Shown here in pieces: positions 2,846 to 51,778 of a stretch of DNA of 56,850 nucleotides (position 1 is the stretch's first letter; each line of letters begins with the position of its first letter). The DNA is from Lachnospiraceae bacterium. Lineage in GTDB: Bacteria; Bacillota; Clostridia; Lachnospirales; Lachnospiraceae. The notes beneath the pieces are model-generated. The model saw only the letters and a program-made list of their open reading frames with translations. It did no database searches and was not told where the DNA came from. The position numbers and the translations under genes were made by a program. The DNA lies in contig JAAVAE010000018.1 in assembly GCA_014804245.1 (NCBI GenBank), positions 64,976 to 121,825 of the forward strand, given 5' to 3'.

Positions 2846-4144
2846 ATGGAAGCACAGATTTTTGCATGGATGATGGATATTTTCTTTATATTCACATTAC
2901 ATATTTTATCCAGGCAGCTTTTGGGGGTAAAATATCAAAACAGACTGTCTTTGGTTTTGGGATGGAATATCTGTTTTGTGTTATGGAATATAAGCAGCTA
3001 TTTATCCATGGGCAATGCGTTAGTCAGTAATATAAGTACCAGTGTGATTTACTTCCTGGTACTTTATTTTTTATATAACGGAAATGTCAGAAATAAGCTG
3101 ATTCTAACAATCATGGTGGTGACACTGGGAATTGTCGCCGAGGGAATCGTAGCGTTTGCTCTGACGATAGCCGAAACATTCAGTAATGAGTCTTTGGAGA
3201 CGGAATTAAGTCTCATTTATGCAGCAAATGCTTTTTCAAAATTAATTTGGTTTGCCTTTGTTAAGCTCATCACGAAAATTTCTTTAAAACAGGAACAGGT
3301 TAAAATCAGACTTATGGAGTGGTTTGAAATTTTTTTAGTGCCGATTGGGAGTATTTTAATCTGCTATGTAACCTGGTGGGGACAATGGAAATATATTGAT
3401 TCGGCGCAGATCATCGTTCTTGGGTCGCTGCTGATTATTAACATTGTCACCTACTATATTTATCAAAGGGTTCAGGAACATGCAACGGAACGGATGGAAA
3501 ATGAACTTCTGAAACAGCAGAATGAACTTTTTCGTCTGCGTTACGAGGAATTCGAGAATCAATGGCTGAAACTGCGCAGGATGCGCCATGACATGGCAAA
3601 TAGTTGTGCACTGGAAATGAGCTATCTTGAAAAAGGGCAATATGAGCAGCTGATGGAACATTACCATGAAAAATTGGGGCAAATTAAGCAGCAGGGGGAT
3701 GTGATTCATACAGGAAACATTGGGATTGACTCCATCTTAAACTATAAACTGGAGATTGCCAGAGAATATGGAATTGCAGTGGATAGGAAAATCAAAATTG
3801 AAAGTGAGATTACAATCAGTAATATCGATTTGAATATTCTTATCGGCAATCTGTTTGATAATGCGATTGAAGCGGTCAAAGAATTATCACCCGATAAGAG
3901 AAAAATACGTTTCTTTATAAGGACGAATGCGGCAAGGCTTCTCTTTGTAATCAGCAATCCATATGAAGGAAAGAGGAATCGGGATAAAGCAGGAAATTTT
4001 CTGACCAGTAAAAAGGATGATTTTTATCATGGCCTGGGATTAAAAGAAGCGGGAGAGATTGTAAAAAAATATGACGGTGAAATGAATATCAACGATGCGG
4101 ACGGCGAATTTTCAGTCAAAGTCTTTCTCTACATCAATCAGTAG
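2846..4144 (+). CDS. AgrC-like sensor histidine kinase (GHKL type)
   Basis: A 432-residue membrane kinase. Residues about 5-208 contain six or seven hydrophobic spans, as in AgrC-type peptide receptors. A coiled linker leads to the phospho-acceptor region LRRMRHDMAN (His248). The ATPase domain shows the N-box NLFDNAIEA (Asn335/Asn339) and a short G-box HGLGLK near residue 395, typical of the GHKL kinases that pair with LytTR regulators. It lies directly after a LytTR regulator and before the peptide and AgrB genes, so it is the likely receptor for the mature cyclic peptide. The ribosome binding site is modest (AGAGG about 8 bases upstream). Confidence 0.9.
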   Translation: MEAQIFAWMMDIFFIFTLHILSRQLLGVKYQNRLSLVLGWNICFVLWNISSYLSMGNALVSNISTSVIYFLVLYFLYNGNVRNKLILTIMVVTLGIVAEGIVAFALTIAETFSNESLETELSLIYAANAFSKLIWFAFVKLITKISLKQEQVKIRLMEWFEIFLVPIGSILICYVTWWGQWKYIDSAQIIVLGSLLIINIVTYYIYQRVQEHATERMENELLKQQNELFRLRYEEFENQWLKLRRMRHDMANSCALEMSYLEKGQYEQLMEHYHEKLGQIKQQGDVIHTGNIGIDSILNYKLEIAREYGIAVDRKIKIESEITISNIDLNILIGNLFDNAIEAVKELSPDKRKIRFFIRTNAARLLFVISNPYEGKRNRDKAGNFLTSKKDDFYHGLGLKEAGEIVKKYDGEMNINDADGEFSVKVFLYINQ

Positions 4145-7112: not shown

Positions 7113-7163
7113 AAAATGTTTATGCAAAAATATCATGCAGATTAAAATGGAACGACACGTCTG

Positions 7164-7418
7164 TTTACTTTTCACACACTGACCAGCGCTGTGCTCTGAA
7201 AGGATAAATAGTAAACATAATGTTACACTTTGCAGGCTAACCGATAACGTAGCACAGGACAGGTAAATATACCAAAAGGAGTCCCTATAAAAACGTCAGC
7301 GCTTGGCGAGGTTCCTCACGAGCCTAGCGTCTGCTACGTTTTTATGGAGCGGGAGCGCGACGACGTTGGTATATTTACCTGCCCTGTGCGGACTACCGGC
7401 TATTCTACGAAAAGTAAC
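7164..7418 (+). repeat. Structured intergenic element, copy 1
   Basis: About 255 bases that recur at 51512-51778 with very high identity over the central 140 bases. An outer pair ACTTTTC/GAAAAGT closes the element. A 23-bp stem (7252-7274 with 7367-7389; one A-C mismatch) encloses an inner stem ATAAAAACGT/ACGTTTTTAT and a terminal hairpin with GGC/GCC and GAG/CTC arms. Relative to copy 2, one stem position changes A-T to T-A on both sides. No open frame is conserved. A terminator starts four bases after the element. It could be a small RNA, a 3'-UTR structure or a palindromic mobile repeat. Confidence 0.75.
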
Positions 7419-7421
7419 TAC

Positions 7422-7452
7422 GGCTGGGACCTTTTGCGGTCCCCGCCTTTTT
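7422..7452 (+). terminator. Terminator directly after structured element copy 1
   Basis: Arms GGCTGGGACC (7422-7431) and GGTCCCCGCC (7438-7447) pair with one mismatch around TTTTGC and are followed by TTTTT (7448-7452). A typical rho-independent terminator on the plus strand. Confidence 0.85.
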
Positions 7453-46110: not shown

Positions 46111-46226
46111 TCTCTTATTCAGAGTGGTGGAGGTACATAGGACCTGTGAAGCCACGGCAACCCCAAGTGTGGAAGGTGCCTACCTGAGCGAATAAGCAGC
46201 CAAATGGCAAATCGAACAATAAGAGG
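46111..46226 (+). ncRNA. SAM-I (S-box) riboswitch
   Basis: P1 is formed by CTCTTATT (46112-46119) and AATAAGAG (46218-46225). Inside are the SAM-I core landmarks GGTGGAGGTACATAGGACC, then TGAAGCCACGGCAACC and GGTGCC..CCTGAGCGAAT. Order and spacing match the class. When SAM binds, P1 is held and the downstream terminator (46248-46275) can form; otherwise AATAAG of P1 can pair with CTTAT of the terminator arm (46252-46256). It represses metK when SAM is plentiful. Confidence 0.93.
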
Positions 46227-46300: not shown

Positions 46301-47488
46301 ATGGAAAAACGTTTATTTACTTCAGAATCTGTAACCGAAGGACATCCCGACAAAGTCTGCGATGCCATATCTGATGCGATTCTGGATGCATGCATGGAAA
46401 AAGACCCGATGAGCCGCGTAGCGTGTGAGACTGCTACCTGTACTGGATTCGTGCTTGTGACAGGAGAGATTACCACTAATGCTTATGTGGATATTCAGAA
46501 GATCGTGCGTGAAACAGTTAAGGAAATCGGTTATACCAAATCCGAATATGGATTTGACGGCAATACCTGTGCAGTACTGGTTGCTATTGATGAACAGTCC
46601 GCAGATATCGCTATGGGTGTAGACAAGGCTCTGGAAGCTAAGGAAAACAAAATGTCAGATGCTGAAATTGAAGCTATCGGCGCAGGCGATCAGGGTATGA
46701 TGTTCGGTTATGCAACCAACGAGACAGAGGAATATATGCCTTATTCCATCGCCCTTGCTCACAAGTTGGCGCTTCAGCTTACCAAGGTTCGTAAGGATGG
46801 AACCCTTCCTTATTTAAGACCCGACGGTAAGAGCCAGGTGTCTGTAGAGTATGATGAGGCTGGTAAGCCGGTTCGTCTGGAAGCAGTCGTTCTTTCTACC
46901 CAGCATGATGCTGATGTGACTCAGGAGCAGATTCACGAAGATATCAAGAAATATGTATTTGACCCTATCCTTCCCAAGGAACTGCTGGATGAAAACACCA
47001 AGTATTTCATCAATCCTACAGGTCGTTTCGTAATTGGCGGACCTCACGGTGATGCTGGTCTTACAGGACGTAAAATTATTGTAGACACTTACGGCGGTTA
47101 TGCACGTCACGGCGGCGGCGCTTTCTCCGGTAAGGACTGTACCAAGGTAGACAGAAGTGCAGCTTATGCAGCACGTTATGTTGCAAAGAATATTGTAGGA
47201 GCAGGTCTGGCTGACAAGTGTGAAATCCAGTTGTCTTATGCAATCGGCGTGGCACAGCCTACTTCTATTATGGTAGATACTTTCGGCACAGGAAAGATTT
47301 CCGATGAAAAACTGGTGGATGTGGTAAGAGAAAACTTTGACTTACGTCCTGCCGGAATCATCAAGATGTTGGATTTACGCCGTCCGATCTACAAGCAGAC
47401 AGCTGCTTATGGTCATTTTGGACGCAACGATCTGGATCTGCCTTGGGAGAAGCTGGATAAGGTGGATGCGCTTAAGAAATATTTATAA
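46301..47488 (+). CDS. metK: S-adenosylmethionine synthetase
   Basis: A 395-residue methionine adenosyltransferase. [15 protein letters not shown] at the N-terminus, [16 protein letters not shown] (the ATP site), [21 protein letters not shown] (P-loop-like signature) and the C-terminal [14 protein letters not shown] are all present. It makes SAM from methionine and ATP. AGGAGG lies eight bases before the ATG, after a SAM riboswitch and terminator that control it. A terminator also follows. Confidence 0.97.
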
Positions 47489-51511: not shown

Positions 51512-51778
51512 GTTACTTTTCACGGGTTGGTCAGAGCTGTGCTTTGGCTACCTGGTGAAAAAGAAAAATAGTGAACATTGTGTTACACTTTGCAGGCTAG
51601 CCAGCAACGTAGCACAGGACAGGTTAATATACCATAAGGAGTCCCTATAAAAACGTCAGCGCTTGGCGAGGTTCCTCACGGGCCTAGCGTCTGTTACGTT
51701 TTTATGGAGCGGGAGCGCGACGACGTTGGTATATTAACCTGTCCTGTGCGGACTAATGCCTACCCCATAAAAAGTAAC
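51512..51778 (+). repeat. Structured intergenic element, copy 2
   Basis: About 267 bases homologous to 7164-7418. The closing arms are GTTACTTTT (51512-51520) and AAAAGTAAC (51770-51778), exact complements. The 23-bp stem (51612-51634 with 51727-51749) is perfect here. Compared with copy 1, one pair is swapped (A-T to T-A), a mismatch is repaired, and one inner G-C pair becomes G-U, so pairing is kept. It begins ten bases after the M56 gene and ends three bases before a terminator unlike that of copy 1. Confidence 0.75.

Follow-up and report, generated by a model that had tools for sequence, protein, structure and literature searches.

Correia (NEMIS) and ERIC repeats are each, as sequence families, limited to one genus or a few. 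Like the element described here they are MITE-like, intergenic, palindromic and present in many copies. Their descriptions set the present element apart, since its arms have no common sequence across genera while its folded core extends over 97 genera. Transcripts of Correia repeats are reported to form stable stems that are cut by RNase III, and stable stems formed by ERIC in transcripts to alter mRNA decay (PMC10969869). The BOX, RUP and SPRITE repeats of pneumococcus are small dispersed structured repeats, as is this element. To our knowledge, none of them holds a GNRA three-way junction. They are described as having extensive secondary structure, with some of them expressed, and are judged to be parasitic, and they differ from the present element in being nearly restricted to S. 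pneumoniae and S. mitis (PMC3049150). REP and BIME units with their RAYT transposases are likewise palindromic, intergenic and often paired, and the 19-22-nt doublets of the apical hairpin described below resemble REP doublets. REP units are short, are marked by a conserved tetranucleotide foot and an associated RAYT gene, and are moved by single-strand transposases without target duplication, whereas the cores studied here lie within elements that have an 8-bp duplication.

Among structured RNAs of Bacillota, the dfn hairpin bound by LoaP is found in leaders of long operons. LoaP targets are reported to have a UNCG-type loop (PMC12691694), while the P4 loop of the present element is GNRA and the element shows no operon preference; a LoaP antitermination hairpin was therefore rejected on loop type (GNRA in 129 of 132 P4 loops). 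A computational catalogue of human microbiomes lists 3161 candidate structured RNAs, 250 of them palindromic (Fremin and Bhatt, 2021; PMC8040213), and may contain the element without a name. The literature searched held no description of it.

The window is the whole stretch of 56,850 nucleotides analysed here, from a Lachnospiraceae bacterium (contig JAAVAE010000018.1, positions 64,976 to 121,825). The original prediction had placed in it two structured intergenic elements that share a hairpin core. Its boundaries for both proved exact (Table 1), and the shared core is real, with 145 bases and six differences, but the element is not confined to two copies: the genome holds 65 matches to R1, a covariance model built from 29 non-redundant cores. 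The explanation that we prefer, with a probability of about 0.6, combines a MITE with a folded core that would work as a single strand, most likely as RNA. A search of Rfam 15 over the element (window and 20 diverse loci) gave nothing above the gathering threshold, the threshold matches lying elsewhere and the lower ones being weak and inconsistent, and no ribozyme model reached threshold in the same set. The expectation that no named RNA family would match was thus borne out.

Table 1. Features of the two element copies in the window (positions are those of the window).
Feature	Position	Strand	Remarks
Degraded 8-bp target duplication, left, CACGTCTG	7156..7163	.	right partner 7419-7426 TACGGCTG, 6/8 identical
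Copy 1 of element, one-core form, terminal repeat to terminal repeat	7164..7418	+	ends TTTACTTTTCAC (7164-7175, G just before) and GAAAAGTAAC (7409-7418); P1 plus core 7250-7394
Copy 1 P1 left arm	7252..7274	+	pairs with 7367-7389; one A.C mismatch
Copy 1 P2 left strand GGAGTC	7278..7283	+	opposite 7359-7364; two G.A pairs inside
Copy 1 P3	7284..7347	+	apical G.A loop 7308-7321; 2-nt bulge 7334-7335
Copy 1 P4 mini-hairpin	7348..7358	+	GNRA loop GGGA at 7351-7354; basis, family alignment and sequence
Copy 1 P1 right arm	7367..7389	+	
Copy 2 of element, one-core form	51512..51778	+	ends GTTACTTTTCAC (51512-51523) and AAAAAGTAAC (51769-51778); P1 plus core 51610-51754
Copy 2 P1 left arm	51612..51634	+	pairs with 51727-51749
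Copy 2 core (P2, P3, P4)	51635..51726	+	
Copy 2 P1 right arm	51727..51749	+	

The core is built of P1 (23 bp), P2, a three-way junction, P3 and P4, which is capped by the GNRA loop. P1 is free in sequence and can extend into arms of 48 paired bases, and these arms are perfect at 48 of 48 compared positions in loci L138, L139, L213 and L262. In P3, a conserved bulge of 2 nt is joined by a T.T mismatch and by an apical G.A motif; the terminal loop accepts extra hairpins. P4 is full-length in 132 of 139 non-redundant cores; its loop is GNRA in 129 of these, where N takes each of the four bases and R either purine. Both stem pairs of P4 are Watson-Crick in all 132, with ten changed on both sides. 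The first P4 pairing, from RNAalifold (loop AGAG), was replaced by the GNRA register, which is preferred because it explains the compensated P4 changes. A kink-turn in P2 was also rejected, as the tandem G.A of the window class are Watson-Crick pairs in distant copies. Unconstrained folds of L121, L116 and L133 agree with this architecture, and that of L119 deviates in P3. Genome G271 (L327-L332) has a variant in which the three-way junction holds three extra hairpins and P2, P3 and P4 are retained, as judged by eye and from one fold (L327).

The two window cores differ at core positions 16, 26, 72, 85, 127 and 133. The A-T to T-A swap reported for the 23-bp stem is found at positions 16 and 127, where it is compensated, and the A-C mismatch of copy 1 that becomes A-T in copy 2 is found at position 133. 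The third reported change, an inner G-C pair turned into G-U, has no counterpart in the consensus fold, because position 85 (C to T) is within the 2-nt bulge of P3, position 72 (A to G) is within the apical G.A motif and position 26 is unpaired. A single compensated pair between two copies is, taken alone, weak evidence.

Almost certainly, both window features arose by insertion of a mobile MITE, a non-autonomous DNA transposon of Lachnospiraceae. Terminal inverted repeats of the GTTACNNTTCAC/GTGAANNGTAAC type are present, and the ends vary by genome (GTTACTTTTCAC in the window's own genome, GTTACAGTTCACGGG in G202, GTAACAGTTCAG in G358). Elements with a good duplication or repeat are about 174-435 bp long, and placement is mostly intergenic, with 6 of 193 distinct copies contained in a called ORF (crude caller). 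The two flanks were compared in 52 rows in which both ends were recognised, some two-core elements being counted twice. Their identity peaks at k=8, at 0.423 compared to a mean of 0.276 and a maximum of 0.344 in 300 permutations; there is a slight excess at k=5 (0.350 compared to 0.342 in permutations) and none at the other lengths from 2 to 12. Good duplications are kept by a minority: 38 of the 52 rows share at most 4 of 8 bases, the duplication is exact (8/8) in four distinct elements (L010, L144, L145 and L151), and in the window copy 1 keeps 6 of 8 bases and copy 2 none. A duplication of 8 bp suggests that a DDE-type transposase acts on the terminal repeats, and such an enzyme, supplied in trans, would move the element. 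No full-length partner transposon with the same ends was found among the loci examined, and IS66 was rejected as a general partner, with matches in only two of eight genomes. The element works like a MITE and has what defines one, except that the loci examined yielded no partner transposase.

A scan of the loci that was blind to the element's ends looked for 12/15 inverted ends flanked by an exact 8-bp repeat and gave 19 rows, of which 10 have the element's end type. The core was found in six of these 10 by cmsearch and in L301 by eye, and is absent from L070 (3800-3932), L263 (2265-2411) and L251 (1210-1462). As these three coreless elements have the same ends and exact 8-bp duplications, the core is dispensable for that mobility. 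A 61-bp coreless mini-palindrome with the same kind of ends also occurs in two species (genomes G000 and G020; loci L194 and L195, both at 1501-1561), upstream of a gene that we take to be dnaJ-like. Distant cores (L115, L116) lie in palindromes with other terminal sequences, so that the core may have more than one vehicle.

Orthologous sites were compared for one insertion, that of copy 2, which lies beside what is presumably a dnaE-like gene. In 29 other loci of the genus, BLAST gave no match to the element at this site, the upstream stretch of L405 amounting to some 156 bases only. Three of these loci, L393-L395, have the upstream gene in place too; its alignment stops no more than 8 bases short of the gene's end, and the element is absent. 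The insertion point of copy 2 is thus flanked by a stop codon on one side and, on the other, by an intrinsic terminator, which relatives have without the element. In L395 (G009), an unrelated long hairpin replaces the usual terminator at this site, upstream of the dnaE-like gene.

The 65 R1 matches of the window's own genome come from a 2.93 Mb assembly that is about 60% complete; a DNA search of it gave 96 matching pieces, some of which are a core against its own reverse complement. R1 has 28-48 matches each in G020, G028, G032 and G033, and matches 27 of 37 genomes of the same genus and 98 of 299 sampled genomes of Lachnospiraceae, about a third, the folded core being conserved across 97 genera in this family search. 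Matches are found in 22 of 246 genomes of the order, 20 of them from the same family, and the other two appear to be spurious, L342 being without the apical motif and L343 just a plain hairpin. For the class, 7 of 291 genomes match, all within the family, and for the phylum 5 of 398, one of which, G1190, is outside the family. This genome, from another family of the phylum, has its matches at C5:53253, C2:106746 and C14:12290 (E 9e-11 to 3e-9). Scans of viral contigs with two core patterns gave no match, nor did blastn of plasmid and phage records with a window copy. If our reading is true, a major gut bacterial family carries, in 98 of 299 sampled genomes, a widespread structured repeat without an Rfam name.

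Scanning named genomes for the apical motif gave at least 119 stretches. Of the 80 loci listed, R1 matches 47 at E up to 1e-5 and leaves 33 unmatched. The titles among the listed matches are Lachnospiraceae, unspecific names at the level of Clostridia and one Bacteroides MAG, perhaps mis-binned; further genera among the record titles are ones that we take to be placed in Lachnospiraceae. Contigs titled Clostridium transplantifaecale Marseille-P8228 (L203) and Clostridiaceae bacterium 1XD21-72 (L251, L272) hold cores, while Hungatella hathewayi WAL-18680 (L255) has apical hairpins. Their presence in these named strains makes the element testable.

The window copies lack an inverted core and are one-core forms of an element that is often two-cored. 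In the two-core form (L003, L006, L010, L021), a terminal repeat is followed by an inverted core, a spacer of ~62-69 bases, a direct core and a second terminal repeat. Core pairs less than 500 bases apart, taken from four model-fitted alignments, are divergent in 42 of 42 rows (38 without four loci that are counted twice), in several genera and with spacers of 47 to 442 bases, and same-strand neighbouring cores are only found farther apart (L118, L344). G032 has many shortened core variants of ~95 bases, several of them beside another core, for example at C41:12462-12556 and C63:5355-5449.

Pairing in the core exceeds chance by every measure used. In the 29 non-redundant cores, 96.7% of cells pair compared to 76.9% after shuffling, and two-sided changes are seen at 38 of 49 pairs and in 292 cells, compared to 79.4 in shuffles and 38-60 when slid. 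None of 500 shuffles reached any of the measures, and all slid versions were exceeded as well. Covariation was again above all 500 shuffles and the slid versions in 76 distinct sequences, a model-fitted set partly from genomes already in use. Aligning many homologues, as the original prediction had proposed, therefore shows that the structure covaries beyond chance. Its view that changes which keep pairing suggest selection on structure holds insofar as the element is structured and covarying; the element is also a high-copy mobile palindrome, which is in part the outcome that had been named as speaking against this view. The reading was incomplete, because two-sided changes alone do not prove selection on RNA.

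Template switching, which is reported to create and maintain hairpins, has been described as a source of such patterns (PMC8794818), and the DNA arms of the element appear to evolve in concert, adding to the covariation. This raises the alternative of a pure DNA palindrome, a MITE that stays complementary through replication template switching between its arms and has no RNA function. P1 in 35 direct cores of the own genome fits this alternative, with 39 two-sided and 20 one-sided cells (changes of 16 and 14 kinds, respectively) and with G-U (5) not exceeding A-C (8), the pattern to be expected from DNA arms that correct one another. Swaps of A-T to T-A and of C-G to G-C in P1 cannot pass through G-U. 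Moreover, the excess of two-sided over one-sided changes in the core set (292 compared to 14) is larger than that of an equally large SAM riboswitch set (66 compared to 21), the two sets differing in depth. The window has a SAM riboswitch of its own (RF00162, 67.9 bits) at 46112-46225 (+), upstream of an ORF at 46301, and this family served as the covariation benchmark.

Several observations stand against arm correction as the whole explanation. In 20 inverted cores of the own genome, P1 has 1 two-sided and 8 one-sided cells, and concerted change is thus not seen there. The non-canonical parts are conserved, namely the bulge, the apical G.A motif and the GNRA loop with its third-place purine (129 of 132), and arm correction leaves unexplained both the conservation of loops over 97 genera and the occurrence of the apical hairpin in tandem doublets without long arms. 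In P2, G-U exceeds A-C by 20 to 2; for this count, as for the core pairs and P4, antisense or truncated matches were left out and 287 of 299 rows kept. The inner 18 pairs of P1, in an ungapped strand-symmetric comparison of 96 distinct, diverged copies, have 44 G-U and 18 A-C (33 and 9 by copy), an excess that speaks against a pure DNA palindrome, that is method-dependent and that comes from matches to a model with priors favouring G-U. A gapped comparison of longer arms gives no G-U excess (84 compared to 91, to 119 compared to 134), and G-U was about equal to A-C when close copies were first counted (213 rows kept of the 222 aligned, antisense or truncated ones removed). The outer arms, 20 bases beyond P1, have 15 G-U and 28 A-C in 28 copies, and the inner arm in this control set has 8 and 6. 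With its outer arms as a built-in control, the element is a natural test of covariation from RNA selection against DNA arm copying. The GNRA rule, the preference for G-U over A-C and the apical hairpin outside palindromes together favour a folded plus strand, though not beyond doubt. We thus consider that selection probably acts on one folded strand, the plus strand of the core, and that a pure DNA palindrome is unlikely, if still the most serious competitor.

A folded strand may also be DNA. Integron attC sites and IS200/IS605 ends are recognised as single-strand DNA hairpins, and the plus strand of the core could likewise be a DNA hairpin for a transposase, recombinase or replication protein. 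Such a role would fit the strand-specific conserved bulges, the concerted change and the very long perfect arms of L138, L139, L213 and L262 (48 of 48 positions). It accords poorly with the 8-bp target duplication, which suggests a DDE-type transposase on the terminal repeats, and with the coreless L070, L263 and L251, whose shared ends imply that the core is unneeded for that mobility, while a purine as third loop base follows the GNRA rule of RNA. We regard a single-stranded DNA fold as improbable, and the folded strand would, on balance, be expected to act as RNA.

The surroundings of the copies show little preference. Among 155 classified of 193 distinct copies, the orientation to genes is unbiased (53 opposite/opposite, 43 same/same, 34 divergent and 25 convergent), and the neighbour genes of the copies share no gene family. 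Copy 2 had suggested insertion beside terminators as a rule, which was rejected because the density of terminator-like sequences over 247 copies is near background (0.03-0.45 per kb beside copies compared to about 0.25-0.27 farther off). In a test for an intrinsic terminator, both window copies lack a T-tract and have GGACT right after the P1 right arm. These results bear on the proposal of a host regulatory leader RNA, that is, a riboswitch, antitermination or terminator element before particular operons. Several genomes do have single or few copies just before some genes (L335-L339, L344), presumably polysaccharide or fatty-acid genes, and it was these few-copy genomes that suggested a riboswitch or operon leader. 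Against it are the lack of orientation preference over 155 copies, the lack of a common neighbour gene family, the near-background terminator-like density, a P4 loop of GNRA rather than the UNCG type of LoaP targets, and wider views of those same operons. A leader is very improbable, and the candidate was rejected.

A cis effect on the message is favoured instead, because there is no orientation or neighbour preference, some copies are in operons and Correia and ERIC provide a precedent. By that analogy, the core might act post-transcriptionally on the host message, in its processing, in the protection of its ends or in read-through; we hold this specific role tentatively. Each element carries one or two conserved folded cores, and the plus strand of the core would, as proposed, fold inside transcripts running through from neighbouring promoters. 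To judge from their positions, copies inside some operons would be co-transcribed. A role in cis would make insertions tolerable whichever their orientation, and with two divergent cores transcription in either direction would come last to one core in the correct orientation.

The apical hairpin of P3 also occurs outside the cores. A strict search (CTTRRYGAGGT-loop-CGARYYTAG, with the three variable pairs Watson-Crick) found 286 distinct places, 171 of them inside R1 matches; another 30 adjoin a P4 motif and are probably cores, and the remaining 85 include 25 direct doublets. These counts are not frequencies, because the loci were chosen for holding the motif. Neighbouring hairpins are spaced 19-22 nt apart in 48 of 60 measured cases, in which a pair may count from both sides. 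Tandem doublets without P1, P2 and P4 are seen in L205, L218, L224, L226, L244, L258, L260, L263, L265, L276, L281, L289, L290 and others, making the apical hairpin a module independent of the palindromic arms and the likeliest recognition module. In Rfam, no family covers the apical hairpins of 17 loci, threshold matches lying elsewhere in these loci. A promoter before the doublets was considered and set aside, as TATAAT-like sequences in 11 of 25, compared to 6 of 25 in a control stretch, are too weak a signal. A bolder and rather doubtful possibility is that the core represents a new family-wide mobile structured RNA, a GNRA-capped three-way junction spread through Lachnospiraceae on DNA transposons with interchangeable ends and perhaps protein-binding or catalytic. 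The apical hairpin would be its shared recognition module, also in tandem doublets, and the stem of free sequence would be selected on one strand while template switching homogenises the arms. L267 and L290 contain longer arrays in which two hairpin types alternate. One doublet, on the minus strand of L260 at about 3576-3651 (record titled Dorea sp. D27), has a tRNA gene on each side and is upstream of a 23S rRNA gene, a site that is very likely transcribed.
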